A stretch of 64,000 bases of DNA, taken from positions 186,001 to 250,000 of the forward strand of contig JALUGO010000030.1 in the NCBI GenBank assembly GCA_027051905.1. Reading direction: 5' to 3'. The stretch's first letter is position 1; each line of letters starts with the position of its first letter. The notes below the pieces were generated by a model. It saw only the letters and a list, made by a program, of their open reading frames with translations, was not told the DNA's origin and did not search any database. Shown here piece by piece: positions 1,214 through 55,010 of this stretch. Made by a program: the position numbers and the translations under genes. This DNA is from Desulfurobacteriaceae bacterium (lineage in GTDB: Bacteria > Aquificota > Aquificia > Desulfurobacteriales > Desulfurobacteriaceae).

Positions 1214-3121
1214 GTGGACTTATTTGCTCAAAGCAAGTCAAAAAAGAATAAGAAATTAAGAGCTGTTAAGATTCTGGATTACACTGTAGATCAGGTAGAA
1301 CCTCTTAGCTTATTGGATGGGTTTAAAGAATTAAAAGCTGTAACTTTTTCTTCTTCCCTATCTATGCTTAGGAAACTGTATGAAATAGGATTTTCAAAAG
1401 TAAACCTTGTAATTTCTCTTTCAGAAGATTTTAAGGAAACTAAAGAGCTCAATTTAGTTAGGCTCTTGACTGAAGAGGGAGACGAAATCTCCAAGGTTGT
1501 ACCGAGGCTTGATTTTGAAGTTAAATATTTTCCTAAGAGTCATTCAAAGTTTTACATACTTCGGAAAAAAGATGGAACAAAGAGATTAATTCTTGGAAGT
1601 TTAAACTTTTCAATTCCAGCCTGGTCGGGAAAACAGCAGGAAGAAGTTTTGTATAGTGATGATCCTAATTTAGTTGAATTTTACGAAGAGGTGTTTGATC
1701 AAATATGGAATTCCTCAAAGGAGATTGTCGATTCAAAATCAGTTAATCGTGAACTACAAAAAAAGAATCTTACACTTAACATAGAAAACTTGAATCTAAC
1801 CCCTGAAAATTTAGAAATTATTAAAAAACTTTATAATCTAACTATGGGAATAACAATAAAAAATCTCATGACAAGTATAAATCCTAAGATTCTTAAAATT
1901 CAGGCAGAAGAAGAGAAAAAGAAGTTGAATAAGATTTACTCAAATATTTCTAAAATGACTTCCCTAAAAGAGAGCTTATTGATATCTCCTGCAGAAAGGG
2001 TATCAAAGGTTCTTGATGAAGATCAGGATGAAATCACAAAGTCGCTAACCTTTGAGAAAGGAAAATGGGTTTTATCTGGAATACTCACAATTACTGGAGA
2101 TAAAAAAGAACGGGCTTTAGATAACTTATTCTTCCTAAAGGAAATTCTTAATTTTGTTAGGGAACACGGGGGAACAGAGGAAACCGAGAAAAACATATTG
2201 GAGAGCATTATTTTCAGTTTTTCAGGAAGTTATCTATGGGTAGTAAGGCAAAAAGAAGAAAATTTACCCGAAAGTTTCCCTGTTTTTGGAATACTTGCTG
2301 GCACTAGTAAAGCAGGTAAGAGTTTAACACTTTCTATTATTTCTATGCTAACCCATAATGAGTTTGTAACTATTGAATACTCGAAAAAGTTTAATCTAAA
2401 AGGATGGGAGTGTAGTATAGGAAAATCGGAAGCAAATATTTTTGAATACTATTTTGATGGAAGACTTTCTTTTGCTAAAGGAGTTTTTCCTTTGCTTGTT
2501 AATGAGGTTAACGAAGGTCATTTGAAGGATAGAAAGCTGTACAATATTGTAAAAACTGTTTCAAACACTAGGATTCCCAAACAGCACGGAGTTGCTGTTA
2601 TGTCTATGAATGTCTCTCTTTTCCTGCCTCCTGAAATAGCAAGAAGAGTATTTTTCCTTGAATATAGCTTCGCTTTAAAGGAACATAAGAAACTGGAAGG
2701 AAAGTTAAGACCTCTTATGAAAAAACTTGATAACTCGCTTTTCTACTACTTTTTAGCTCAAACAAACCCCTATGAGGTAAATGTTTCGGCAGATGATCCT
2801 CTGAAGTACACCAGAGAATTCTTCAAAACACTGTCGGAAGAAAGAGAAATAGATCTTCCCATACCTCAAACATATATGGGAGATGTGGAATCAAAAAGCT
2901 ATTCAGAGTTAAAACACGTGTTTTCTTTAATAGAAGAGGTACCAACTGTTAAACATCCAAAAGAGGGAGTTGAGTGTTATCTACTGGAAAAAGAGAAATT
3001 TCGTTATCCTCCTCCTGTAGAAGTACTGGTTGAAGATAGGGGGAGTTATTACTATTTGCACAAAAAGAAGACCGATAAAATTTGTGGTAAAAGAAAATTC
3101 TGGGAAAAATTTTTAAGCTAA
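1214..3121 (+). CDS. Phospholipase D-like nuclease / P-loop ATPase fusion, candidate defence protein
   Basis: 635 aa from a GTG start (weak Shine-Dalgarno, so the start is uncertain). Residues about 40-170 form a PLD-like domain: His110-x-Lys112, Asp120, then GSLNFS at 128-133, as in HKD-type nucleases. Residues 180-260 are lysine/glutamate-rich and helical. The C-terminal half is a P-loop ATPase: Walker A GTSKAGKS at 363-370, a Walker-B-like FPLLVNE ending at Glu431, a sensor-like Asn466 and paired Arg477/478, an order seen in AAA+/SF3-type ATPases. There is one HKD motif per chain, so a dimer would be needed for catalysis. Codons are AT-rich and there is no GGAGCTCC. Nuclease plus ATPase suggests DNA restriction or anti-phage defence, but no named system is recognised. 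Confidence 0.7.
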   Translation: MDLFAQSKSKKNKKLRAVKILDYTVDQVEPLSLLDGFKELKAVTFSSSLSMLRKLYEIGFSKVNLVISLSEDFKETKELNLVRLLTEEGDEISKVVPRLDFEVKYFPKSHSKFYILRKKDGTKRLILGSLNFSIPAWSGKQQEEVLYSDDPNLVEFYEEVFDQIWNSSKEIVDSKSVNRELQKKNLTLNIENLNLTPENLEIIKKLYNLTMGITIKNLMTSINPKILKIQAEEEKKKLNKIYSNISKMTSLKESLLISPAERVSKVLDEDQDEITKSLTFEKGKWVLSGILTITGDKKERALDNLFFLKEILNFVREHGGTEETEKNILESIIFSFSGSYLWVVRQKEENLPESFPVFGILAGTSKAGKSLTLSIISMLTHNEFVTIEYSKKFNLKGWECSIGKSEANIFEYYFDGRLSFAKGVFPLLVNEVNEGHLKDRKLYNIVKTVSNTRIPKQHGVAVMSMNVSLFLPPEIARRVFFLEYSFALKEHKKLEGKLRPLMKKLDNSLFYYFLAQTNPYEVNVSADDPLKYTREFFKTLSEEREIDLPIPQTYMGDVESKSYSELKHVFSLIEEVPTVKHPKEGVECYLLEKEKFRYPPPVEVLVEDRGSYYYLHKKKTDKICGKRKFWEKFLS

Positions 3122-16924: not shown

Positions 16925-17135
16925 TACGCTTTATTCTGGATATTGGAACTTCTATTGTTTTATTTCCATCTTTAAAAAAAACTTTATTTTCCGAATTTAA
17001 TAAGATAAGGACATCTCTTGGAGGAGTATCTAATGAATAAATCCTTACACACTCATATCCCAGTCCTGAAATTCGTAAAGGAACCGGTAGAAGAAAAGGA
17101 ACAGAGTGTATAAAATATATACATAAAAAAACCAA
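16617..17135 (-). pseudogene. Displaced C-terminal domain of a membrane protein, running into phage remnant
   Basis: The first 80 or so codons look real (LRISGLGYECVRIYS, then VLILLNSENKVFF, then VPISRIKRITYYLD). The rest is low-complexity Ser/Gln/Arg, the exact antisense of the phage fragment at 16571-16924. It overlaps the end of the membrane protein at 17053-17901 by 83 nt in another frame. The simplest reading is one former protein, helices plus a soluble domain, broken by a one-base shift in the CCTTTTCTTCT stretch near 17090-17110, with its original stop lost at the junction near 16915. Confidence 0.5.
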
Positions 17136-17901
17136 TCACTACCAGTAGGGAAAGCACATATATATTAACGAGCTCGGATAACTTTAAATTTTTCATATTC
17201 ATCATTCCTTTAACAGTACTAATAGGGTTAATCAAAAGAACTAAAACAAGCATCGCAATAATTAGCGAAAATCCTTGGAGAAACGGTTCCTTAATGGAAG
17301 ATTTATTAAATTTGGGTGGAATTTTCTGAAGAAATTCAGAAATAGCCTGATCAATTACCATGTAACCAAGTACAAGACTTAATAGAAGTAGAATATAAAA
17401 GGCAATTAAAATCTCTAAATCTTTTTTTGCGACATTCGCATTATTATTATCTATTAAATACTGGAGGACATAATATATAAGCAATGTTGATAGTGAAAGA
17501 CCGAAAAAAAGAGTAAATAGTAGAGAATGATTAGTTAGAATAAATAACACAGCTATCGCAAGGAAGATATAAATTAGAACAGGAGTACTCAAAACTTTTA
17601 GTAGTCTGTTTTCCTTAATATTGATAAACTCTGTTGTTTCATTTTTTCTATTTCCCGTCATCAGCGTTTCCATGTAAGTTAAGAAAGAATAAAATACAAT
17701 TATGGGTAAATAAAAAGAAATTATTATAACTTCAGCAACAAGGTAGGTTATTATAAAACCAGTCTCTTCCCAGAATATAAAAGGAACTTTAAACTTCCAG
17801 GCATAAAATAAAAGCCAACAGAAACCAGCTAAAAGTATTAATATAACCCCATACCTATTAAACCCTTTAATCTTCTTTAAAAATTCCAAGATAAAACTCA
17901 T
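17053..17901 (-). CDS. Multi-pass membrane protein, unknown, probably frameshifted at its 3' end
   Basis: 282 aa, AT-rich codons, about seven hydrophobic segments starting at residue 17. No family recognised. The last 20 residues (Ser/Thr/Phe-rich) do not resemble a natural end, while a well-formed soluble domain continues in the next frame; see the adjacent pseudogene. Nothing marks it as a transporter. It lies in the unusual segment behind tRNA-Leu. Confidence 0.5.
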   Translation of the reverse strand: MSFILEFLKKIKGFNRYGVILILLAGFCWLLFYAWKFKVPFIFWEETGFIITYLVAEVIIISFYLPIIVFYSFLTYMETLMTGNRKNETTEFINIKENRLLKVLSTPVLIYIFLAIAVLFILTNHSLLFTLFFGLSLSTLLIYYVLQYLIDNNNANVAKKDLEILIAFYILLLLSLVLGYMVIDQAISEFLQKIPPKFNKSSIKEPFLQGFSLIIAMLVLVLLINPISTVKGMMNMKNLKLSELVNIYVLSLLVVIGFFMYIFYTLCSFSSTGSFTNFRTGI

Positions 17902-17966
17902 AACTACAGACCCTTTGCATTAAATTCCTTACTGATGTAATTTTCCCTATGATTCCTCTTTACTTA

Positions 17967-17986
17967 GCAAATGATTTGCGTTAAAA
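17967..17986. repeat. Operator-like repeat, copy 1
   Basis: GCAAATGATTTGCGTTAAAA contains the inverted repeat GCAAAT-G-ATTTGC. It matches the copy at 19133 at 16 of 20 bases and partly matches one at 19299. Possible binding site of the two-HTH regulator at 19349. Confidence 0.45.
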
Positions 17987-17995
17987 TATCCCAAA

Positions 17996-18033
17996 GGGAC
18001 TAAGGCTCTCAGTCGGTCTTAGTCCCCTTTTTT
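17996..18033 (+). terminator. Orphan rho-independent terminator
   Basis: GGGACTAAG (17996-18004) pairs with CTTAGTCCC (18018-18026) around a 13-nt loop, followed by a T run (18028-18033). This is the strongest terminator in the window, but no intact rightward gene lies just upstream, so its gene was probably deleted. Confidence 0.75.
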
Positions 18034-20950: not shown

Positions 20951-22499
20951 TTCCAAAGGAACAGAGGTAAAACTTTTTATTTCCAAGGCTGTATTCTTTT
21001 AGAACGTTTCCAATTGGTTGTTGAGAAAGGAATAAAGAGTCATAAGGAGGAGAGGAGGAAAATTTTAAGATCTCCATTCTTCCTTTTTCGACATAAAAAC
21101 ATAGCTGAAGATACGATGTTCTGGTGTATAGTGGATAACCTGAAGAGTCTTTGACAATCTCGAGAGCTACCTTTCTGACTGATGGATATTTCTGTTGGGC
21201 TATTGGGTAATAATAGGAACTGTAAAATCCTCTAAGAATTAACATAAGCGTAGCTACGAGAATAACAACGTAAGTGAAATTGAACCTTGGAATGAAGAAG
21301 AAGTATATGGTGTATAGAATAATTAGAAATTCCAGTGTGGATTTCAAAATTAGAGAAGGATTTTTTGATACCACAATACCTACAATGATTGCTAATGGAA
21401 CTATAAGCTCAGCTATGAACCGAATTGTTTCTTTAGCCCTTTTGTGAAGTATTGTGTGATTCGACAGGTAGTAACCAAGTAAAGTGGCAAAAAGCGGAAG
21501 GGCAGGCATCATGTATCTGAGTCTGCTTCCGGGGAACAGCCAGTATAGTAAGAAATCAAGTGAAAAGGCAAAAGCGAAAACCTTTAGTATTCTGTTTTCA
21601 GGGACAATAGGAAATTTCTTCCTGAATGCGTAATATACAAAAATAATAGACCAGGGAAATGTTGCTGTGAAAAATCTAATTGGGAATGAAAAATAACTTT
21701 TAAGTAACTTTGACACTGGAACCGCTCCAGGAGCTCGTGAAACTATTTCTGATAAAAGGGTTTTAATGGCAATATCTGTTTTAACGGCAAGTATCCATGC
21801 AGTGAAGGGGATAAGCCCCAATGTGGCGCCTATAAAATGTTGGATAGAAAATAGTTTGTTGAGTTTTCTGTTTAGCAAAAGATGTGATAAAACGAAGAAC
21901 AGATAAAACTGGATAGCTGGAAGGCCTTTGGTCAGAAGTGCAAATGATGTAAACATGTATCCAATAGTCCAGGCTGTGAACTCTCTTTTCTTCTCAAAGA
22001 AAAAGAACCATCCCAGGGTGGCTAAGGTAATTAGCAGAGAAAAGAGGGCATCGGGTTCACATTTTGAGCCGTAACCTATTAGGACTATGTAGAATGTAGG
22101 GTATATAATGGCACTGAATAGGGCAATTTTTCCCTTAAAAAACTGTTTGTTTATATAAAATAGGACGATAGATGTCAGAATAACAGAAATTGCAGAAGGT
22201 AGTCTGAGGGAGAACTCTGAAACTCCTCCAAGTAGTAATGAGATAACTGAGGTTATCCATTCATGAAAGGGAGGTTTTTTAAAGTAAGGGATTCCGAGAA
22301 CTGTAGGCTGAAGAAAATCTTTTTTGAGTAACATTTCTAGAGTGATAATTCCTCTTCGGGGTTCTTCGTGGATTAAAACAAAAACCCATGTGTTAATCAA
22401 GAGAGATAGGAAAAGTAGTAAGAGAAACCATTTTAAAAATCTAGTTTCCCATTTCCCTTCTGTTATCGCCAACTTCTCGAAAGGCTTCTTGGGGGACAT
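20850..22499 (-). CDS. ArnT-like membrane glycosyltransferase (GT39/GT83 type)
   Basis: About 549 aa from ATG 22499, which has GGAGAAG upstream; a TTG at 22535 would give 561 aa. Transfers a sugar from a polyprenyl-phosphate donor on the outer face of the membrane. Landmarks: acidic HEEPRR in the first loop, YFKKPPFHEW, EPDALFSLLI and LLTKGLPA, plus about 12 helices and a soluble C-terminal part. The final 33 or so residues (Glu/Pro/Lys/Ser-rich) are antisense to cobB, so the original stop may have been lost. The start overlaps the zinc-ribbon gene. Confidence 0.8.
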   Translation of the reverse strand: MSPKKPFEKLAITEGKWETRFLKWFLLLLFLSLLINTWVFVLIHEEPRRGIITLEMLLKKDFLQPTVLGIPYFKKPPFHEWITSVISLLLGGVSEFSLRLPSAISVILTSIVLFYINKQFFKGKIALFSAIIYPTFYIVLIGYGSKCEPDALFSLLITLATLGWFFFFEKKREFTAWTIGYMFTSFALLTKGLPAIQFYLFFVLSHLLLNRKLNKLFSIQHFIGATLGLIPFTAWILAVKTDIAIKTLLSEIVSRAPGAVPVSKLLKSYFSFPIRFFTATFPWSIIFVYYAFRKKFPIVPENRILKVFAFAFSLDFLLYWLFPGSRLRYMMPALPLFATLLGYYLSNHTILHKRAKETIRFIAELIVPLAIIVGIVVSKNPSLILKSTLEFLIILYTIYFFFIPRFNFTYVVILVATLMLILRGFYSSYYYPIAQQKYPSVRKVALEIVKDSSGYPLYTRTSYLQLCFYVEKGRMEILKFSSSPPYDSLFLSQQPIGNVLKEYSLGNKKFYLCSFGIKSLTPQEAEEEPEKHSPGKQNHSKVKSASPGG

Positions 22500-22698
22500 C
22501 TGGTTCTTCTCCAATGGGGCTGAATTCAACGTCAATGTAGTTACAGTTGGGGCATCTGTAGTAACTTATCCACATGGAAGCTGAACCGATTATATCGGAA
22601 ACTTCTCCGTTTTTGTTAACGTCGCGAGACCCCAGGTATTCGAACTCACCAACGTTTCCGCAGTTTGGACACTTCATCAGTTTTCGAAATGTTTTCAT
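22441..22698 (-). CDS. Small zinc-ribbon protein
   Basis: 85 aa from ATG 22698, preceded by AGAGGTG; an ATG at 22752 is possible but lacks a site. Two Cys pairs, CPNCGNVG near residue 10 and CPNCNYIDVE near residue 50, form a zinc ribbon. The middle has a GSRDVNKNGE turn. Function unknown. It overlaps the start of the downstream glycosyltransferase by 59 nt, so the two are translated as a unit. Confidence 0.65.
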   Translation of the reverse strand: MKTFRKLMKCPNCGNVGEFEYLGSRDVNKNGEVSDIIGSASMWISYYRCPNCNYIDVEFSPIGEEPDVPQEAFREVGDNRREMGN

Positions 22699-22764
22699 AA
22701 CACCTCTTTTCAGCATTTGAGATATACTTTCTAACACCAGAAATTTAGGCAACAGGTAGAGAAT

Positions 22765-24324
22765 ATGAACAGGAAAAACGTTTTTATACTTGTGATCCTT
22801 TCCCTTATACTTCTTGTTTTCCCAAACGGCTTTTATTCAGCTTTTGACAAAGATGAACCGAAGTATCTTGAAGCTGCTTATGAAATGGTAAAAACTGGAG
22901 ATTACATAACACCGTATTATAACTATGAATATAGATTTGATAAGCCCATACTTATCTATTGGTTGATAGTTCTCGGATATAAAGTTTTCGGAGTTGGAGA
23001 GTTTGGGGGGAGGTTTCTTGTTTCCTTTTGTGGCTTGTTAACGGTTTTTCTGATTTATTGGTGGCTATGTAGGTGGAAAAGTGAAAAGTTTGCATTCTGG
23101 AGTTCCCTTGTTCTCCTTTCTTTGCTGGATTTTATAATAATGTCTTCTGTAGCAATGCCAGATATAGTTCTTACTTTTTTTATTACGGCTTCTCTCATTT
23201 TCTTTTTCGAGGGTTATCATAGGAAGAGTTCAAACTTTTACAGGTTGGCATTCCTTTTTTCCGGATTGGCTACTTTAACTAAGGGACCTGTAGGTCTGGT
23301 TCTTCCCGGTATTGTAGCTGTGGTTTATCTAATTTTACGAAGAGATTTAACCAAAACGTTTAAAACCATACCGTGGTTTTCTGGGTTTGCAATTTACTTT
23401 GCCATTATTCTCCCCTGGTATGGAGCAGTTCTGTATAAGCATGGCTATCAATTTTTCAAAGATTTCATAATTTTTCACAATATTCAACGCTTTACAGGAA
23501 AGATACCAGGTCATCCAACCGAATGGTGGTATTATTTAGCTAACTATTTCTGGATTTTTCTTCCATATTCTCTTTTCTTTCCTTTTGCAGTATATAGGAT
23601 TTTTAAAGAGAAAAGGGTATGGGGAGATAATATTCTGGAGTATTCTACTGTCTGGTTTTTCGTTATTTTTCTGTTTTTCCAGATAGCTCATACTAAGCTG
23701 GCTCACTACCTGCTTCCTTCATTTCCTGCTTTTGCTGTGATAACTACCTGGTATCTTTTCCGTTTGGATACAAAACTTCCTCTGTATCTTACAGCCTTTC
23801 TTTTTACAACGTTGGCACTTGCAGGTGGTGTTTTCTGGAGTATGAAACAGTGGCCAATTAAGGGACTTCTATTTATAGTGCTTCCCCTCCTGGGAGTCTG
23901 GTGGGCAGTTTGGAGTAGAGATGCTTTGAGACCTATAACGGCCGGCTTTATTGCAGGAATGATTCTGTTTAAGTGGGTAACACTTTCTTCTTTGGAGCCT
24001 CTTAGGGCGAAACCTTACGTTGCAAGAAAGGTTGCTGAAATGAAAAAGGGGTGTAAAGAGTGTAAGGTGGTATTTTTGGACTATTCAAGTCCAGAGATAG
24101 TTTACTACTATAGGTTAGGTAAGTTGGAGAGTCTTCCTGTTAGCAAGGTAAAGAATTTGCTTAAAGGAGGCAAACCGGTTCTTGTAATAACGAGAGAGAA
24201 TAGATTAAAGAGGTTAAAGGGGGCGAAGTTTTACGAGTTGATGAGGAAAAAGGAGTTACTTCCTAATCATTCTGTAGTAGTTATATCTAACTATCCTGGG
24301 GAGAAGATTCATGGTAGAGGTTAA
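22765..24324 (+). CDS. ArnT-like membrane glycosyltransferase
   Basis: 519 aa. First-loop acidic motif DKDEPKYLEAAYEM near residues 28-41, FDKPILIYWL, AMPDIVLTFF and LTKGPVGLVLPG are the family marks. About 12 membrane helices and a C-terminal periplasmic domain with VFLDYSSPEIVYYYRLG. Likely adds an aminosugar or other sugar to lipid A or another glycolipid. The stop overlaps the start of the GT2 gene by 14 nt. The AT-rich coding and lack of GGAGCTCC suggest later arrival. Confidence 0.88.
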   Translation: MNRKNVFILVILSLILLVFPNGFYSAFDKDEPKYLEAAYEMVKTGDYITPYYNYEYRFDKPILIYWLIVLGYKVFGVGEFGGRFLVSFCGLLTVFLIYWWLCRWKSEKFAFWSSLVLLSLLDFIIMSSVAMPDIVLTFFITASLIFFFEGYHRKSSNFYRLAFLFSGLATLTKGPVGLVLPGIVAVVYLILRRDLTKTFKTIPWFSGFAIYFAIILPWYGAVLYKHGYQFFKDFIIFHNIQRFTGKIPGHPTEWWYYLANYFWIFLPYSLFFPFAVYRIFKEKRVWGDNILEYSTVWFFVIFLFFQIAHTKLAHYLLPSFPAFAVITTWYLFRLDTKLPLYLTAFLFTTLALAGGVFWSMKQWPIKGLLFIVLPLLGVWWAVWSRDALRPITAGFIAGMILFKWVTLSSLEPLRAKPYVARKVAEMKKGCKECKVVFLDYSSPEIVYYYRLGKLESLPVSKVKNLLKGGKPVLVITRENRLKRLKGAKFYELMRKKELLPNHSVVVISNYPGEKIHGRG

Positions 24325-25279
24325 GAAGAAGATCTCTATTGTAATTCCTGTTTTTAATGAAGAGGAAAATGTTCCTATACTTTACGAGAAGTTGAAGAAT
24401 GTTCTTGATGGGCTTCCGTATGAATACGAAATAATATTTGTAAATGATGGTAGCACCGATAAAACCGGGAAAATACTTGAAGAAATAGCGAACAAAGATA
24501 AAAAGGTTAAAGTAATTGAATTTGCGAGAAACTTTGGGCAGACACCTGCAATGGTTGCTGGAATGGACTATGCAACTGGGGATGTAATAATCACAATGGA
24601 TGGTGATCTTCAGAATGATCCCAAGGATATTCCACGGCTTCTTGAAAAGATTGAGGAAGGTTATGATGTTGTAAGTGGCTGGAGAAAAAATAGAAAAGAT
24701 GCTGCGGTTTCAAGGAAGCTTCCTTCGAAGATAGCTAACTGGTTGATTGGCAGGTTAACAGGGGTAAAAATTCATGATTACGGGTGCACACTTAAGGCTT
24801 ACAGGAGTGAAGTTATAAAAAACGTTAGGTTGTATGGGGAGCTCCACCGATTTATCCCTGCCCTTGCTTCAACTGTAACCTCGATTGACAAAATAATTGA
24901 AATACCTGTGGAGCATCATCCCCGGATTTACGGGAAATCAAAATACGGTATTTCTAGAACGTTTAAAGTTATTTCAGACCTTTTCTTTATCTGGTTTATG
25001 AAAAGGTTTCTCCAGAAACCCATACATTTTTTTGGTATTCTTGGAATAGTTCTATTTATCTTAGGCTTTATTCCCTTTGTTTATTTGATAATTTTAAAGC
25101 TTTTGGGACATTCAATAGGTCATAGACCTCTTCTTATAATTTCGGTTATGTTTATTTTAGCTGGAATTCAGATGTTTACTACAGGCCTTGTAAGTGAAAT
25201 GTTGATGAGGATTTACTTTGAGTCTCAGGATAAAAAACCATATGTTGTAAGGAGAGTCCTTAATATTGAAAAAGAGTAG
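24311..25279 (+). CDS. GT2 polyprenyl-phosphate glycosyltransferase (ArnC/DPM-like)
   Basis: 322 aa. N-terminal GT-A fold: ISIVIPVFNEEENV, VNDGSTD, the TMDGDLQNDP DxD segment and SGWRKNRKD. Two C-terminal membrane helices (about 235-300). It should charge undecaprenyl phosphate with a sugar that an ArnT-like enzyme then uses; the upstream gene is such an enzyme, so the pair makes sense. Overlaps the following flippase-like gene by 14 nt. Confidence 0.9.
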   Translation: MVEVKKKISIVIPVFNEEENVPILYEKLKNVLDGLPYEYEIIFVNDGSTDKTGKILEEIANKDKKVKVIEFARNFGQTPAMVAGMDYATGDVIITMDGDLQNDPKDIPRLLEKIEEGYDVVSGWRKNRKDAAVSRKLPSKIANWLIGRLTGVKIHDYGCTLKAYRSEVIKNVRLYGELHRFIPALASTVTSIDKIIEIPVEHHPRIYGKSKYGISRTFKVISDLFFIWFMKRFLQKPIHFFGILGIVLFILGFIPFVYLIILKLLGHSIGHRPLLIISVMFILAGIQMFTTGLVSEMLMRIYFESQDKKPYVVRRVLNIEKE

Positions 25280-26156
25280 TTTCATTATTTCACTCTTAAT
25301 TCTTATAATCTTCCTCTATTTCCTCTATGAGTATGAAGTTTTTCATCATTTGAGAGAAATTTTTCGGAAATTATCTGTAACCTACGTTATGCTTGGTCTG
25401 TTTTTTTATACTCTTACATATTTTTTCAGGGCAAAAAGATTTGCTATTTTCTTCTCCCGTGTAAAAACGATAGACCTTGCTGCAGTTATGGCAGTCCATA
25501 CTTTTTTTAATAATCTTCTTCCTTTTCGATCTGGAGAAGCTTCATTTCCAATAATTCTCAGAAAGTTGTTTGGTATTGAGGGGATAATTTCTTCGGCAGC
25601 TCTTGTAGTTGCTAGGCTTTTTGATTTACTTTCGTTGTCGATTTTATTTACTTTAGTTACATTTGGTGTGGCTGTAGAAGATAAAAGATTTCTTATGGTT
25701 TCCCTAATTTTGACTGGAGTCATATTTCTAACTATGATCATTAGTTTCAAGTTTTTAAAGGTTTTAAAAAAACGATTTGGTTTTGCTTCTACGCTTTTTT
25801 TCTTTTTTTCTGAATTTAAATCTGTTAGAAACTTAGGACTTGTTTTTTTTTATTCTTTTTTTAACTGGCTTACAAAGTTTATAGCCTTCTATTTCTTTAT
25901 GAAAGCTGGAAGCTTAGACTTCAACTTCTTTCAAACCACTTTCGTTGCAACTTTTGGAGAGCTGACAACCGTTCTACCTATCCACAGCATAGGAGGATTT
26001 GGAACTTATGAAGCTGGATTGGTAGGAGGGTTTGCCCTTTTAGGGTTTAAGGGAGGATATGCTTTAACGGTTGCTTTTTACTTTCACCTGTTGCTTTTTT
26101 TAATGTCTGGTTTCCTCGCTTTTACTGGTTGGATTTACCTTTCTCGCCGTGTATAA
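25266..26156 (+). CDS. Flippase-like membrane protein (lysylphosphatidylglycerol synthase TM region family)
   Basis: 296 aa, TTG start inside the GT2 gene's end. Eight or so helices. Family marks: FFRAKRF near residue 53, NNLLPFRSGEASFP near 90, and GGFGTYEAGLVGGFALLG near 245. Relatives are proposed to move or protect lipid-linked sugars. Third gene of the glycan operon. Its last 35 nt overlap the convergent aroK. Confidence 0.82.
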   Translation: MKKSSFIISLLILIIFLYFLYEYEVFHHLREIFRKLSVTYVMLGLFFYTLTYFFRAKRFAIFFSRVKTIDLAAVMAVHTFFNNLLPFRSGEASFPIILRKLFGIEGIISSAALVVARLFDLLSLSILFTLVTFGVAVEDKRFLMVSLILTGVIFLTMIISFKFLKVLKKRFGFASTLFFFFSEFKSVRNLGLVFFYSFFNWLTKFIAFYFFMKAGSLDFNFFQTTFVATFGELTTVLPIHSIGGFGTYEAGLVGGFALLGFKGGYALTVAFYFHLLLFLMSGFLAFTGWIYLSRRV

Positions 26157-26643
26157 GGGAGAGAATTTCGTTTGTAACTTCTTCAGGTGTTTTTCCTGCA
26201 GTATTGACAGTAAAGAGGGCTTTTTTGTAAAAGGGTAGTCTTTTTTCATAAAGCTTTTTGAGTTCTTTTTTACTGAGTGAGGCTAGAGGTCTATTTTTGT
26301 CGCCTGAAATTCTTCTGTATAAAGTTTCAAAGTCTGCATATAGGAATATGGATATTCCAGACTGGTTTATCTTTTCCATGTTGTCTTTATATGCTGGAGT
26401 TCCACCACCAGTTGATAAAATAAAATTCGCTTTTCTGGAGAGTTCAGAGAGTAAAAAAGATCTTTCCAGTTCTCTAAACGCTGTTTCCCCTTTATTTTGG
26501 AAGATTTCAGGGATACTCATTCCTGTATTCTTAACGATAATGAAATCCAGATCTCTAAAGGGAATGGATAGTTTTTTGGAAAGAATTTTTCCTACGGTTG
26601 ATTTTCCACTTCCCATAAAGCCAACTAATACAATTTTCATCAT
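26122..26643 (-). CDS. aroK: Shikimate kinase
   Basis: 173 aa. ATP-dependent phosphorylation of shikimate. Walker A GFMGSGKST (8-16), Asp-rich RDLD, FRELERSFL, the shikimate-binding GGG (STGGGTP) and lid Arg in NRPLA. It overlaps the next gene's stop region by 4 nt (26640-26643), so it may share a transcript with the unknown genes upstream. Confidence 0.94.
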   Translation of the reverse strand: MMKIVLVGFMGSGKSTVGKILSKKLSIPFRDLDFIIVKNTGMSIPEIFQNKGETAFRELERSFLLSELSRKANFILSTGGGTPAYKDNMEKINQSGISIFLYADFETLYRRISGDKNRPLASLSKKELKKLYEKRLPFYKKALFTVNTAGKTPEEVTNEILSLIHGEKGKSNQ

Positions 26644-27482
26644 TTCACCGGGAAAGCAAAAACAGGTATGTAACCTTTTTCTGGAAGTTTGAAGTTTATA
26701 TCATCATCTGTTCCTGTAATGCCATCGATGCCAGGATTAACCACTTTATTTCCTATTAAATAGAATCTGGTCTTGAAACAGCCCTTCACAGGTAGCTCTT
26801 TTCTTGTTTTGTAGCCAACCAACTTTTCTTTTATACCCCAGTTTGCAGCTTCAAACACTTTAAAGTAGGATAGTTTCATGTATCCAATAGGAAGCGAGAT
26901 GTAGGCAACGGTTATAAGCGCCAGAGCTTGCAGGAAAAGTCTTAGTTTGTAAGGGAAACTTTTTATGTTTACAAAAGGTTTAATTTCTAGTAAACCATTT
27001 TCTATGTATTTTACTATGTCAGAAAGGGTAGAGCCGTATTTGTAAACGTCGTCTCTGTTAACCGGACGCTGGGTTCTCCAGTGGGCTACCAGGAAAGAAG
27101 GGACATTTCTGACGTCAATTTTTGTTATTTCAAAGTAGTGGGGGATGTCTCTTACCAGCTGGAGAGACGGATCGTTTAGGATTTGAGATAGTTCTTCTTC
27201 ATAAATCGGAGAACCTTCTGAACATATTTCTCCCTCATAAAGCTCGAAAACGGGTTCAATGCCATTGAGAAACCATTTTTCTAAAAAAACTTTTAAGGCC
27301 TTCTTTTCTGGAAGTTCAGAGTTGCTTGAAGAAAGAAGGAAATTGATGCCGTTATGGCAGATAACTATTTCTTCATTTCTAAAGGGAAGATAGAGTTCCA
27401 GTTTACCTCTGGTTTCCTTCAATCTATCAATGAAAATAATCAGATCTTCCAGGCTGCTTAACTTTCCTTTTATACGCTGCAT
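26640..27482 (-). CDS. Hypothetical protein with DUF4388-like N-terminus and one membrane helix
   Basis: 280 aa. The first 55 residues (MQRIKGKLSSLEDLIIFID... then KLELYLPFRNEEIVICHNGINFLL) resemble the DUF4388/PATAN pattern of gliding and signalling proteins, weakly. A single hydrophobic helix lies near 185-205. The C-terminus has VNPGIDGITGTDDDI, an Asp/Gly turn. Overlaps the upstream TPR gene by 13 nt. Family call tentative; function unknown. Confidence 0.55.
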   Translation of the reverse strand: MQRIKGKLSSLEDLIIFIDRLKETRGKLELYLPFRNEEIVICHNGINFLLSSSNSELPEKKALKVFLEKWFLNGIEPVFELYEGEICSEGSPIYEEELSQILNDPSLQLVRDIPHYFEITKIDVRNVPSFLVAHWRTQRPVNRDDVYKYGSTLSDIVKYIENGLLEIKPFVNIKSFPYKLRLFLQALALITVAYISLPIGYMKLSYFKVFEAANWGIKEKLVGYKTRKELPVKGCFKTRFYLIGNKVVNPGIDGITGTDDDINFKLPEKGYIPVFAFPVK

Positions 27483-28747
27483 ACCATCCTGCCCAAAAAG
27501 AGGTTGACAGCAAAAATGATTATTGATATTAAAATAAAAGGTCGAATATTGTCGTTTATAAAGCTCCTTGTACCGGGGAAAAGTAGCAGGTCTGGATCAA
27601 AATTCCCAGGATTTGCCACTAGGAATTTGATGAAAATCAAGCCTGCAATTAACCCGAGTAACAGTCCGGCTGTTAGGTTGATTGGAAGTGTTAATCCTGG
27701 AGTGGGAACGGGAACGTGTATGAGAATTGGTATGGGAGGAAGTTTTTCTACAAGAATTCCCATGTTGAGTAGCTCTTTTTTTAGTCTGTTTGCGTCTTCA
27801 AGTTTTAGTAGAGATGAGTAGGATAAGTAGAGGTTGTATTTTATCTGCACTGTTGGGTAAATTTTGTCGGCTGTTTTGAAGTAATGAAGAGCCTGCTGGT
27901 AGTTGCCTTTTAGGAATTCCGCATATCCGTAGTCATTAAGAATCAGAGCTTTCTCCAGAGGAGAGGTTGCTTTTACGTCTTTTAACAACAGGACGGATGA
28001 AAGTTTTCCAAGGGCAAGGTCAGAGGTAACCTTTTCCACTTTAGCTCTGTTTCCTTTAAGAACCTTGTCTATTAAGTGGTGCGGAACATAGCCGTCTCTT
28101 TCTACTTTGATAGAGTAGAACGTTTCTTCCGATTTTAGTCTTAAACTGGCGTTTTCGTATAGGGTTTGAAGTGACAGAAGAGTTAAGATGGCTCCTGAGA
28201 GATAGATGCTCCATTTATTTTTTTTGAGGGACAGAAGTAAGACCAAACCAAATCCGCTCAGGAAGAAAATGAGAATGGCTTTGTCTATGATAAAGGATGT
28301 TGTAAGAATTGTAGTGCCAATAACTGTAGAGACTCTTTTGAAAATTGGTTGGAAGTTGGTGCTTTGGATGTAAGTTAGAAGTGTAAAGAGAAGAGTAAGG
28401 AATATAAAAACTTTTAGTGCTGCGGTTAAAGGTGGAATGTGGAAAACTAGTTTTTTGAGAGTTGTTATTTGTGAAGGAGGAACTTTTTCTACTTCTTGGC
28501 TGACAAGATAGTTTAGCTCCGGAATATAAGAGACAGGCAGTTTCTTTTTAGTTTCCTTTATGAGAGTAATGTCTTTGGCTATTTCAGAGTTGTTTCTCTT
28601 TTCTCTAAGGTCGTTTTCAAGTTTAAGGATTAAATCATACAGAGAGGGTTCAGCTTTTATGGTTTCGTTCTTTATGTTTACAGAGCAGAGGGCAGAACCG
28701 CTAAAGAAGATTATCAATACGACTAAGAAACTCCTTAGCATCATCAT
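27470..28747 (-). CDS. Secreted/membrane TPR-containing protein, unknown
   Basis: About 425 aa. I prefer one of the three tandem ATG codons at 28741-28747, because they lead straight into a signal peptide (MLRSFLVVLIIFFSGSALC); an ATG at 28765 would add MRELKI. A periplasmic helical part, three or four membrane helices (about 115-205), a single TPR-like pair (ALILNDYGYAEFLKGNYQQALHYF), then two more helices near the end. Paired with the DUF4388-like gene. Together they look like an envelope complex of unknown role. Confidence 0.6.
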   Translation of the reverse strand: MMMLRSFLVVLIIFFSGSALCSVNIKNETIKAEPSLYDLILKLENDLREKRNNSEIAKDITLIKETKKKLPVSYIPELNYLVSQEVEKVPPSQITTLKKLVFHIPPLTAALKVFIFLTLLFTLLTYIQSTNFQPIFKRVSTVIGTTILTTSFIIDKAILIFFLSGFGLVLLLSLKKNKWSIYLSGAILTLLSLQTLYENASLRLKSEETFYSIKVERDGYVPHHLIDKVLKGNRAKVEKVTSDLALGKLSSVLLLKDVKATSPLEKALILNDYGYAEFLKGNYQQALHYFKTADKIYPTVQIKYNLYLSYSSLLKLEDANRLKKELLNMGILVEKLPPIPILIHVPVPTPGLTLPINLTAGLLLGLIAGLIFIKFLVANPGNFDPDLLLFPGTRSFINDNIRPFILISIIIFAVNLFLGRMVCSV

Positions 28748-29150
28748 AATTTTCAATTCCCTCAATTTTCCATGTTTTGAATCCTACTACCTGTTTGTTT
28801 AGCTTAAGGGCAAAGGCCAGTTCACTTAAGGTTCCGTAGTTTCCGCCTATTGCAACTACAATTTTACTTGCTGATGAGACAACTATAACGTTTCTGGCGT
28901 GTCCCATTCCTGAAGGAATTTTAATGTCCACGTAGGGGTTTGATAGGCCTTCGTAGTGCGGAAGTATTCCGATAGTGAGCCCTCCCTTTTCTTTTGTTCC
29001 CCTTGATGCTCCCTCCATAACGCCGAAAAGCCCGCCGGTAACGAGAACATAGCCCTTTTCGGCAACAAGCTGCCCTACCTTTCTTGCCGTTTCGTAGAGG
29101 GGGCTTCCCTCTGGAGCTCCCCCATCTCCAATAACCGAAACTACCTTCAC
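28701..29150 (-). CDS. LOG family / TIGR00725-type protein
   Basis: 149 aa. Rossmann-like fold with VIGDGGAPEG at the N-terminus, VTGGLFGVMEGASRG (the PGGxGTxxE-related segment) and VVAIGGNYGTLSELAFAL. Relatives include cytokinin riboside monophosphate phosphoribohydrolases and molybdenum-carrier-like proteins. The PGGxGT motif is GGNYGT here, so nucleotide hydrolysis is only possible, not shown. Follows the KaiC-like gene by 10 nt. Confidence 0.82.
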   Translation of the reverse strand: MKVVSVIGDGGAPEGSPLYETARKVGQLVAEKGYVLVTGGLFGVMEGASRGTKEKGGLTIGILPHYEGLSNPYVDIKIPSGMGHARNVIVVSSASKIVVAIGGNYGTLSELAFALKLNKQVVGFKTWKIEGIENYDDAKEFLSRIDNLL

Positions 29151-51821: not shown

Positions 51822-53122
51822 TGGCTACACTTGTTGAACTTGTTAAGAAGGGAATAGTTCCAAAAGAGGTTGAGTTCTGTGCAGAGTATGAGAAAAGGGA
51901 CGTTGACTATATAGTTAACGGCCTTATAGAAGGGACGATAGTTATCCCTGCAAACATTTACCATAGGGAGAGGGAGGACTTTACTCCCAGAGCCATCGGG
52001 AAAGGACTTAAGACAAAGGTTAACGTTAACATAGGAACCTCTGGCGATATTGAGGACATAGAGCTCGAACTTGAAAAGCTTAGAGTTGCTCTGAAGTATG
52101 GAACAGATGCCGTTATGGACCTTTCAACTGGAAAGTTCATAGATGAGACAAGAAGGGCAATTCTGAAAAACTCTCCGGTTATGGTTGGAACCGTTCCTAT
52201 CTACCAGGCTGCAAAGGAAGCTGCTGAAAGGTATGGATTTATCGGGAAGATGACGGTAGACGACCTCTTTAACGTAATAGAGAAACACTGCCAGGATGGC
52301 GTTGACTTCATAACCGTCCACTGCGGTGTAACTCTCTCTTCGCTTGAGAGGCTCAGGAACGAGGGAAGGATAATGAACATCGTCTCCCGGGGTGGAGCTC
52401 TCATGGCCGAGTGGATGGTCTACAATGATAGGGAAAACCCCTTATACGAGCACTACGATAGACTTTTAGAGATTGCAAAGAAGTATGATGTAACCCTTTC
52501 TTTAGGCGATGGAATGCGCCCCGGATGTATAGCCGACGCAACAGATAGGTGCCAGATTGAGGAGCTCATAACCCTTGGAGAGCTCGTTGACAGGGCAAGG
52601 GAGGCCGACGTTCAAGCTATGGTTGAAGGCCCCGGCCACGTTCCCCTTGACCAGGTTGAGGCAAACATCCTGCTTCAGAAAAGGCTCTGCCACGGAGCTC
52701 CCTTCTACGTTTTAGGTCCCATCGTTACAGATATAGCTCCCGGCTACGACCACATAACCGGAGCAATTGGAGGAGCAATAGCTGCAAAGGCAGGAGCCGA
52801 TTTCCTTTGCTATCTAACCCCAGCTGAACACCTGGCCTTGCCAGACGTCGAAGACGTTAAGCAGGGCGTAATCGCTGCAAGAATCGCTGGCCACGCTGCA
52901 GACATCGTTAAAGGTGTTCCCGGAGCTATTGATTGGGATATTGAAATGGCGAAGGCGAGAGAAGCATTAGACTGGGAGAGGCAGTTTGAACTTGCAATAG
53001 ACCCTGAAACTGCCCGCAGGTATAGGGAAGAGAGAGCTCCCCAGGAAGACGAAAAAACCTGCACAATGTGCGGAAAACTCTGTTCAATTAAAAGAGTAGA
53101 AGATTATCTGAATAAGAAATAA
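51821..53122 (+). CDS. thiC: Phosphomethylpyrimidine synthase
   Basis: 433 aa. Radical SAM enzyme that converts AIR to HMP-phosphate for thiamine. GTVPIYQ, HCGVTL, SLGDGMRPGC, EGPGHVPLDQ and the C-terminal cluster CTMCGKLC (C-x2-C-x3-C). It lacks the long N-terminal region of E. coli ThiC, as in the shorter anaerobe type. TAATG coupling to thi4; a terminator follows at 53129. Confidence 0.95.
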   Translation: MATLVELVKKGIVPKEVEFCAEYEKRDVDYIVNGLIEGTIVIPANIYHREREDFTPRAIGKGLKTKVNVNIGTSGDIEDIELELEKLRVALKYGTDAVMDLSTGKFIDETRRAILKNSPVMVGTVPIYQAAKEAAERYGFIGKMTVDDLFNVIEKHCQDGVDFITVHCGVTLSSLERLRNEGRIMNIVSRGGALMAEWMVYNDRENPLYEHYDRLLEIAKKYDVTLSLGDGMRPGCIADATDRCQIEELITLGELVDRAREADVQAMVEGPGHVPLDQVEANILLQKRLCHGAPFYVLGPIVTDIAPGYDHITGAIGGAIAAKAGADFLCYLTPAEHLALPDVEDVKQGVIAARIAGHAADIVKGVPGAIDWDIEMAKAREALDWERQFELAIDPETARRYREERAPQEDEKTCTMCGKLCSIKRVEDYLNKK

Positions 53123-53128
53123 ACTTTT

Positions 53129-53155
53129 GGCAGCGGGTATTCCCCGTTGCCTTTT
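53129..53155 (+). terminator. Terminator of thi4-thiC
   Basis: GGCAGCGGG (53129-53137) pairs with CCCGTTGCC (53143-53151), with one G-T pair, loop of 5, followed by TTTT. It overlaps the end of the convergent DUF4276 gene. Confidence 0.75.
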
Positions 53156-53809
53156 AAGAGTTTTTGAGTTTGTCTATCCATTCTCTAAAGTGAGGGCATT
53201 TTTCTATCATTTTTTCAATACCTAATATTTCTGCTATATCTATTCCATGAAGAGGTTTACTATACTTGTTTGGTTTTAAAATTGATTCTATCCTTTTTGA
53301 TGGTGCTGTTTCTGGGTTGTCGTTAATAAGCTCTGGATTTGGGAACTTACGAATTATATCTAAGAATTCTTCTTTTTTATTTGGAAAAACTTCTTCAAAA
53401 CCTATAATGTCTGAAAATAAGAGGGCTTCAAACTCGTGAATCTGGATATAGGGTATAAACTTGGAATCATTGATATCTTTGAACCAGCAATTCTCTAAGT
53501 GATGTACTTTTTCATATATGCCTCCGGAAGGCATATTTTCTTTTCCAGGAAAGTTTGAAGGGATTTTGTAAAAATCTATCAGAGTAGTAACTTTATAGCA
53601 GTCGCCATTTTTATTACTTTTTGTATATCTTTCTTTATATGATTATAGTTGACAAATCCACCTTTGTGTTTTTGATGAGGAGTTCTGCTTGTTTCTATGA
53701 TAATTGGTTTGAAATATATTTGAAACTCCAAGAAGTAGTTGGAAAGTATTTTTTTGATGAATTGTTCTTCTGTTTGCCCTTCAACAATTACATAAATTAT
53801 CCGGCACAA
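53154..53809 (-). pseudogene. DUF4276 (TOPRIM-like) protein split by a one-base frameshift
   Basis: The first frame (53579-53809) reads MCRIIYVIVEGQTEEQF through IKKDIQKVIK, then MATAIKLLL and stop. The other frame, open upstream of 53534, reads NGDCYKVTTLIDFYKIP, then NFPGKENMPSGG, then IQIHEFEALLFSD through to EWIDKLKNS. Adding one A to the ATAAAAATGG run near 53605 joins them into a protein of about 218 residues, the normal DUF4276 length. VEGQTE and HEFEALLFSD are the predicted TOPRIM metal-binding motifs. Starts 3 nt after the ATPase stop. Could be decay, sequencing error or programmed shifting. Confidence 0.8.
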
Positions 53810-53812
53810 CTT

Positions 53813-54922
53813 TTAGGGTCTCCCTCCTAAAATATTTTTTTCCCACAGTTCTCCTAAGGAGTATTCTTGAAGCCAGTCTTCAAGATCTTCTTTTTTAAGT
53901 CTTCTAAAAACAGATTGATTGTCTTCAACGTCAACTACTATTATGTCTTCAGGTTCAAAATGGCTTATTAGAGTTGCAGATTGTGTTGACATTATTATTT
54001 GAGTTTTAGGAGATATAGTCTTAACAATTTCAGAAAACAGCTTTATAGCTGCTGGATGAAGTCCCAGTTCTGGTTCATCTATGAGAATGGTTGAAGGTAA
54101 AAATTCTTCGGGTTGAAGAAGTAAAGTTAACAAACAAAGCATTCTTAGTGTTCCATCTGATAGATGAGATGCATTGAAATATTCATCTGAGTCTCGGTGT
54201 TTCCATTCTAATCTTATTCTTTCATTATCAATTCTGTCGGGTTCTAATACAAATTTTTCAAAGAAGGGAGCAACCTTTCTTAAATTTCTTTCTATTTGTT
54301 TAAAATTATTCTCATATCGTTTTTGGAGTAAATATAGAAATGCCGGTAGATTCGAAGCGTTTTCTCTGAAAAATCTATTGTCGTTTATATTACATGCTCT
54401 TCTCATCGGTGATTCATTGCTAGTATCGTGAAAATGATATACTTTCCACGTTTTCATGGAGTTAAATACGTAATACGATTTACTGGGTCCACCTACCTTT
54501 CCTGTTTCTTTAGCAGCTTCCGGAAGTTTACTTTCATACTCGTTTTTTCCTATATCATCATAATCCCAATAACCTTGGCTTGTATAGAAACCTACTCTTT
54601 CATATTCAAAGAATAAGTTATCTTGATTGTCGGGTATTAGTCTGAATTCATATACGTTTGGACTGAAGAAAACTTTACTCTCGATGTATTCAGAATATTT
54701 TCTCCCGAAGTAAAGCAGATTGTTGGCTCCTCCTTCTTTTCTTACGTGCTTTTGGAACTCCTGTTCTACAAAAGCATTTAACATCCTAAAAAATGATATG
54801 AAATTAGACTTACCAACTCCGTTGGCACCAATAAGGATATTGATATTTCTAAGTTCTATTTCAGCTTCTCTGATTGATTTAAAGTTTTTGATTACTAATT
54901 TTTCAACCTTTCTCTTTTCCAT
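53813..54922 (-). CDS. AAA ATPase of the OLD/RecF-like type, defence-module partner
   Basis: 369 aa. Walker A GANGVGKS (32-39) after KNFKSIREAEIEL; ABC-like signature HLSDGTLRMLCLL near 255-267, Walker B TILIDEPELGLHP and D/H-loop MSTQSATLISHF. No coiled-coil and no TOPRIM domain of its own; the TOPRIM-like function would come from the adjacent DUF4276 gene. AT-rich, with no GGAGCTCC. This resembles ATPase plus TOPRIM anti-phage pairs (PARIS AriA/AriB, OLD). Function inferred. Confidence 0.82.
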   Translation of the reverse strand: MEKRKVEKLVIKNFKSIREAEIELRNINILIGANGVGKSNFISFFRMLNAFVEQEFQKHVRKEGGANNLLYFGRKYSEYIESKVFFSPNVYEFRLIPDNQDNLFFEYERVGFYTSQGYWDYDDIGKNEYESKLPEAAKETGKVGGPSKSYYVFNSMKTWKVYHFHDTSNESPMRRACNINDNRFFRENASNLPAFLYLLQKRYENNFKQIERNLRKVAPFFEKFVLEPDRIDNERIRLEWKHRDSDEYFNASHLSDGTLRMLCLLTLLLQPEEFLPSTILIDEPELGLHPAAIKLFSEIVKTISPKTQIIMSTQSATLISHFEPEDIIVVDVEDNQSVFRRLKKEDLEDWLQEYSLGELWEKNILGGRP

Positions 54923-54961
54923 AACTCTCAGCTAACTTTGTTTTAGGGATTTTAGTATTGG

Positions 54962-54971
54962 TAGTATACTA
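54962..54971. promoter_or_regulatory. Palindromic TAGTATACTA, possible shared -10 of divergent promoters
   Basis: Perfect 10-bp palindrome between the ATPase and hisF. It reads TATACT in both directions. -35 matches are weak on both sides. Confidence 0.35.
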
Positions 54972-55010
54972 TATGTATGCTTGAGAAATAAATTAAGATG
55001 AGGTGTTTTC

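Follow-up and report, generated by a model that had tools for sequence, protein, structure and literature searches.

What is the gene that lies between serA and truD in an Aquificota genome and carries the motifs of a PLD nuclease and of an ATPase in one chain, and does it belong to a defence system that is already known? We analyzed the gene within a stretch of 64,000 nucleotides, henceforth the window, which is contig C30:186001-250000 of the 84%-complete genome of a heat-loving Aquificota bacterium (G000).

Domain content of the PLD-ATPase protein

We aligned the protein with 17 relatives that have 15-28% identity to it, giving the 18 members on which the conservation below is based. The relatives come from Aquificota, Thermotogota, Thermodesulfobacteriota, Campylobacterota, Bacillota, Acetobacteraceae, and haloarchaea, and both halves are common to all. 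The features are as follows.

1214..3121, + strand: PLD-ATPase gene, an Argonaute-independent AgaP homologue; 635 aa, GTG start
1301..1738, + strand: PLD nuclease domain, approximately residues 30-175; PF09565 and PF13091 matches and structure comparison
1541..1549, + strand: HxK, H110-S-K112; H invariant, K nearly invariant; corresponds to AgaP H105/K107, catalytic
1595..1606, + strand: GSxN, G128 S129 N131; invariant; corresponds to AgaP G157/S158/N160
1739..2170, + strand: helical linker between the domains, residues ~176-319 with approximate boundaries; poorly conserved, mainly helical in a low-confidence prediction
2300..2323, + strand: Walker A, GTSKAGKS, residues 363-370; G368-K369 invariant
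2489..2506, + strand: Walker B, PLLVNE, residues 426-431; Asn430 in place of the Asp of the other 17 members
2552..2554, + strand: Lys447, mostly conserved basic position between the Walker B and sensor-1 motifs; 17 of 18 members have K or R
2609..2611, + strand: sensor-1 Asn466; invariant
2642..2647, + strand: Arg477-Arg478, candidate arginine finger; R478 invariant

The GTG start of the 635-aa ORF is consistent with the M..LF N-terminus found in homologues. The invariant columns of the alignment are H110, G128, S129, N131, P356, G368, K369, P426, N466, R478, and D528, and GSLNFS occupies residues 128-133. Written as regular expressions, the ATPase motif order was found in none of 5000 shuffles of the window protein and the PLD motif in 0.8% of 5000. 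Given the invariant columns in 18 homologues and the shuffle test, the combination of motifs is not a product of chance. Every motif listed in the initial annotation (HxK at 110-112, GSLNFS, Walker A at 363-370, Glu431, Asn466, and Arg477/478) is at the residue given there, and the presence of PLD nuclease and P-loop ATPase motifs in one chain is borne out by the Pfam matches and the alignment.

We assign the N-terminal half, with good support, to the PLD nuclease domains of the NgoFVII/BfiI/Nuc type. It matches RE_NgoFVII (PF09565, E=1.1e-6) and PLDc_2 (PF13091, E=2e-6), both above the curated cut-offs. Two structure predictions, made from three sequences, had mean pLDDT values of 40.5 and 44.4, and the PLD part alone was usable; comparison of this part with known structures retrieved NucT (Z 11.9), the NgoAVII R-protein (10.9), Nuc (10.7), SauUSI (10.6), and BfiI (8.0). 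Each chain has a single HxK/GSxN half-site, and the 18 members do not conserve the Asp that normally completes HxK(x)4D. In Nuc and BfiI one active site is formed by two chains, so by analogy two chains would be expected per active site here.

For the C-terminal half, searches of Pfam, PHROGs, NCBIfam, and PADLOC gave nothing convincing. Searched against the PDB, a profile made from the 18 members matched VCP-like AAA ATPases from Walker A through the sensor Asn (E=2.4e-4). The AAA+ order of Walker A, Walker B acidic pair, sensor-1 Asn, and arginine finger is kept in the 18 members, with an Asp-to-Asn exchange in the window protein. Seventeen of the 18 members have the Walker B Asp, Asn430 occurring in the window protein alone, and the acidic residue that follows (Glu431 here) is kept by all. 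Asn466 is separated from Arg477/478 by 11-12 residues, a spacing that fits AAA+ proteins. The evidence points to an AAA+-like P-loop ATPase. The label “SF3/AAA-like” first given to this half was therefore sound for the P-loop motifs, and the profile search favors its AAA+ part; its SF3 part is possible, the motif order being compatible with the A, B, B', and C motifs of SF3 helicases, and a Pfam search of the 18 members gave no SF3 family match. No SF2 helicase family is among the 25 Pfam families most matched by the members (E up to 1), and Viral_helicase1 had a weak match in 2 of the 18. Structure prediction and fold search of both halves were thus informative for the PLD half, which matches NucT and similar nucleases, and of little use for the ATPase half: the low-confidence ATPase-only model gave Z 4-5 against p97-type cores, none above 4.8, which is too weak to count.

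Distribution and genomic setting

We searched 135 other Aquificota genomes and found the PLD-ATPase protein in three, one copy being broken (Aquifex aeolicus plasmid ece1); no other genome of the source genus and family among them has it. Alignment-based searches gave matches over most of the model in 2 of 395 genomes of Thermodesulfatator's phylum and in 2 of 103 genomes of Athalassotoga's phylum. By tblastn, relatives over most of the length were found on plasmids of Athalassotoga, Arcobacter, Limosilactobacillus, Ligilactobacillus, Lactobacillus, Acetobacter, Komagataeibacter, and haloarchaea. The low Aquificota count and the bacterial and archaeal plasmid relatives make the distribution patchy and accessory, not core. 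Three different queries gave no PLD-ATPase match in 50,697 phage records (tblastn). Pattern scans of the genome and viral collections gave mostly no match and are insensitive for such divergent proteins; the tblastn search of phage records is the stronger evidence for viral absence.

In the tree, the haloarchaeal members (100/100) and the three intact Aquificota members (100/99) each make up a group of their own, and the branch leading to the window protein is long (1.28). Decay of the gene is common: the copy on Aquifex plasmid ece1 (L010) is broken into three ORFs, and the copy in G520 (L119:9117-12433) is split by a transposase gene. ORFs of ~1050-1100 aa in many Aquificota and other genomes (e.g., L088-L098) match with their N-terminus the PLD part only, and are probably PLD-helicase proteins of a separate family.

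The insertion site is visible by comparison within the genus. G117 and G115 show the empty site, with ruvB, serA, and truD in this order and the last two directly adjacent, whereas an 11.7-kb accessory block separates serA from truD in the source genome. The block consists of a cassette (AAA protein, AbiE genes, and unknown genes) followed by the PLD-ATPase gene, which is last. The AT-rich setting noted initially is real, the gene having a GC content of 33.4% against 43% in the adjoining truD and a window mean of 44%.

The cassette itself (L002:11758 to window position 1114) is mobile-looking and comprises a 423-aa unknown, a ClpX-like AAA gene, AbiEi/AbiEii, unknowns, and a 227-aa gene at its end. 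Another genome of the genus, G116 (L141), has most of it, from the AAA gene onward, in the same order at another chromosomal place. Since the G116 cassette ends after the 227-aa gene and is without the PLD-ATPase gene, the latter would be a separate single-gene arrival, or else was lost in G116, and its two unrecognised neighbours are cassette genes. The neighbours, a 179-aa gene that begins 97 nt to the left of the window and a 227-aa gene at 431-1114, are real and had no family match in our searches, as first described, but they do not hold as part of a system. We rejected the grouping of these two upstream unknowns with the PLD-ATPase because G116 and G119 have both without it.

A second insertion lies next to the core gene serA: a PabI-type restriction enzyme (PF09522, 2.3e-32) with a methyltransferase, at L002:7837-9793 (C30:173837-175793), between ruvB and serA. 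A restriction-modification pair of the PLD-ATPase with this upstream methyltransferase was considered and rejected, since the methyltransferase pairs with the PabI-type enzyme on serA's other side. No cognate methyltransferase is adjacent to the PLD-ATPase gene, the nearest methyltransferase being this PabI-paired one ~12 kb away; the PabI-type R-M is ~11 kb from the gene. “Restriction effector”, the term first applied to the protein, is accordingly too specific, with no cognate methyltransferase adjacent and no specificity domain found.

The remark that the gene lacks GGAGCTCC was correct (0 copies, against 47 in the window). This palindrome occurs from position 219 to 61074, where ~1.9 copies are expected from dinucleotide shuffles, and GAGCTC occurs 114 times in the window against 22 expected on the same basis. 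GGAGCTCC is scarce in the acquired block, and it is possibly a genome-wide signal, e.g., an uptake or modification motif. Other low-GC stretches (30-40%) at window positions 17001-18000, 21000-29000, and 53000-55000 may be further acquired islands.

We surveyed the neighbourhoods of homologues for defence genes and found that the loci are often rich in defence or toxin-antitoxin (TA) genes. AbiE genes are 2.5-4.2 kb from the PLD-ATPase gene at the source locus; the G105 member is near a type III-B CRISPR; the Athalassotoga plasmid member is beside a Type III R-M; the G023 member is with Fic and AbiEii; the Acetobacter and Komagataeibacter members are amid TA genes; and the Halomontanus and Natrinema members adjoin Argonaute. 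This association with defence is descriptive. A helicase-methyltransferase-helicase cassette on the Athalassotoga plasmid was considered as DISARM and rejected, since PADLOC assigns it to Type III R-M with an additional UvrD-like helicase. Within 8 kb of the member genes at 19 loci, no gene family occurred in more than three, the recurring ones being AbiEii, UvrD-like helicases, and ParA. As there is no constant partner gene in these loci, the initial description of the protein as self-contained is reasonable for the bacterial members.

Kinship with AgaP and the presence of Argonaute

The initial annotation had found no named system that the protein matches. We reached a different result: both of its halves have a homologous counterpart in AgaP, from the APAP (Argonaute-PLD) system of haloarchaea. 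NpAgaP was retrieved at E=1.4e-40 (Z=1e6) by an HMM that we made from 13 bacterial members, and NpAgaP residues 153-710 alone gave E=2.4e-31 against the bacterial HMM. Profile-profile comparison of Aquificota-only and haloarchaea-only members aligned 495 collinear columns, with a probability of 92.6 and E=4.5e-7. These matches indicate that AgaP and the bacterial members share both halves. On Natrinema pellirubrum plasmid pNATPE02, the haloarchaeal member begins ~65 bp after the Piwi gene, and its H105, K107, E112, G119, S120, D122, G157, S158, and N160 match the published numbering (PMC11442185); because the residues coincide, this member is the published AgaP.

AgaP without Ago is toxic in Haloarcula hispanica, and H105A, K107A, G157A, S158A, and N160A each abolish the toxicity (PMC11442185). 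Ago and AgaP together lower transformation, expel the plasmid in an AgaP-dependent manner, and reduce virus yield, and the PLD residues of AgaP are essential for plasmid resistance (PMC11442185). The same study describes the N-terminal PLD domain and already reports that AgaP is without the conserved Asp of HxK(x)4D; the words “ATPase” and “AAA” are absent from its main text (PMC11442185). In the open-access literature, we found no paper naming a PLD-ATPase family or following up AgaP. Judged by the sequence matches, kinship of the window protein with an immune effector is well supported.

We looked for Argonaute using the Piwi domain (PF02171). None was detected in the source genome (84% complete), in G023, G105, G136, G520, or G544, or on the bacterial plasmids searched. 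One Piwi is on the chromosome of the Aquifex genome (G001), and the Athalassotoga genome (G137) has a below-cut-off match. No Argonaute was beside any bacterial member checked. Having no Ago operon, the window gene is filed as an AgaP homologue and not as an APAP system.

Among haloarchaeal plasmids with NpAgaP orthologues (~81% identity or more), Ago adjoins the gene in two, N. pellirubrum and Halomontanus. On seven others (L104, L105, L111, L145-L148) there is no Piwi on the replicon searched; in one of these, L147, the alignment of the orthologue covers the C-terminal part only. Six of the seven Ago-less plasmids (all except L147) have a conserved 375-aa gene, in divergent orientation, at the place of Ago, and N. 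pellirubrum has a 59-aa remnant of this gene (52% identity) upstream of its Ago gene (L112:3012-3188). The product of the 375-aa gene resembles the exonuclease domain of DNA polymerase B weakly (E=0.0025, below the curated cut-off). Within the plasmid replicons, this arrangement suggests that the partner was swapped between Ago and the 375-aa gene.

A wider reading is plausible, and we put it forward tentatively: AgaP may not be an effector specific to Argonaute but a single branch of a widespread, modular family whose members are stand-alone PLD-ATPase nucleases and which predates the link to Argonaute, with the ATPase half as a built-in sensor and brake and with the haloarchaeal upstream partner swapped between Argonaute and a predicted DEDD-type exonuclease-like protein.

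Proposed function and comparison with known systems

We consider it somewhat probable that the gene encodes a self-contained, ATP-controlled nuclease effector against foreign, mainly extrachromosomal DNA, as an Ago-independent member of the AgaP family. Observed are the domain content, the AgaP homology, the accessory and plasmid distribution, the lack of a constant partner, and the insertion between serA and truD. We propose in addition that the protein dimerises, that its ATPase half controls the nuclease, that foreign DNA is the target, and that the window copy is active. As a single-protein effector, it would destroy or limit such DNA in the following manner. Two PLD chains would pair to form one metal-independent nuclease site acting via a phospho-histidine, as in Nuc, BfiI, and NgoAVII. 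The AAA+-like ATPase would oligomerise and restrain the nuclease in the resting cell, then load or translocate on target DNA and license cleavage. In the haloarchaeal APAP system, restraint and targeting are supplied by Argonaute; in the bacterial members, because that lineage has no constant partner, both are most likely built into the ATPase half.

Some observations count against an effector. Asn430, found in the window copy only, may weaken ATP hydrolysis; the copies on the Aquifex plasmid and in G520 are broken, decay being common; and the carriage of many members on plasmids also fits a selfish role. The protein could serve the plasmid or mobile element, as an addiction toxin or a nuclease in competition between plasmids, with host defence as a side effect. 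We regard this as rather unlikely. Many members are on plasmids near replication or partition genes (ParA 250 bp away in Arcobacter, Rep in Ligilactobacillus, and Rep on the same stretch as the Athalassotoga member), those of Acetobacter and Komagataeibacter are in TA clusters, and AgaP is toxic by itself and removes plasmids (PMC11442185). However, chromosomal members are found beside core genes (G544 by trpS, G023 on a 560-kb contig, and the window gene itself), and no co-inherited antitoxin gene was found at the 19 loci.

A further explanation, which we judge a little less likely again, is that the window copy has degenerated: the protein would be produced with an ATPase that the Asp-to-Asn change in Walker B has impaired, and would be a residual PLD nuclease or functionless. 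The uniqueness of Asn430 among the 18 members, the long branch of the window protein, and the broken state of other copies in the phylum would fit, but the ORF is intact over 635 codons and retains every PLD residue together with Glu431, Walker A, the sensor Asn, and the two arginines. A nuclease-helicase for DNA repair or replication, with an SF3-like motor and a PLD processing ends in the manner of a tyrosyl-DNA phosphodiesterase, is very improbable: SF3 helicases have a similar order of motifs, the annotation of some haloarchaeal members is tyrosyl-DNA phosphodiesterase, and one Halobaculum copy adjoins a Rad50/Mre11/NurA-like cluster, but the gene is rare, patchy, and a low-GC insertion, the 19 loci have no conserved repair operon, and the best-studied relative, AgaP, acts in immunity.

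We compared the protein, read as a self-contained effector, to known systems. NgoFVII/NgoAVII and BfiI share its PLD catalytic domain (PF09565; NgoAVII Z 10.9, BfiI Z 8.0), whereas here an ATPase is fused and no methyltransferase is adjacent; no B3-type DNA-recognition domain was matched in the Pfam search of the 18 members, for which the structure models are poor. SauUSI and PbeA, PLD-helicase fusions in defence, likewise combine a PLD nuclease with a P-loop NTPase in a single chain, but use SF2 helicase modules, and the PLD-ATPase members have no convincing helicase-family match. The PADLOC match of the window protein covers the PLD motif only. BrxL-HKD, from a variant of BREX type 1, also joins an AAA+ ATPase and a PLD (HKD) nuclease in one chain, in the opposite domain order and within a BREX operon (PMC12839542); BrxL was not among the PADLOC models matched by the PLD-ATPase.

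AgaP, from the long-A Argonaute-PLD (APAP) system of N. pellirubrum, shares both domains, HxK and GSxN, a single PLD half-site, and an accessory character, at ~15% amino-acid identity to the window protein. It is plasmid-borne and shares a transcript with a long-A Argonaute, which suppresses its toxicity (PMC11442185), whereas no Piwi was detected in the 84%-complete genome of the window gene. The comparison connects unannotated genes scattered among bacteria with an immune nuclease that has been studied by experiment, and indicates that this nuclease has an overlooked ATPase half. It raises the question of whether the ATPase half explains why AgaP is toxic alone while relatives are carried without Argonaute. 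If the wider reading is true, the evolutionary order of APAP would be the nuclease-ATPase first, with Argonaute recruited later.
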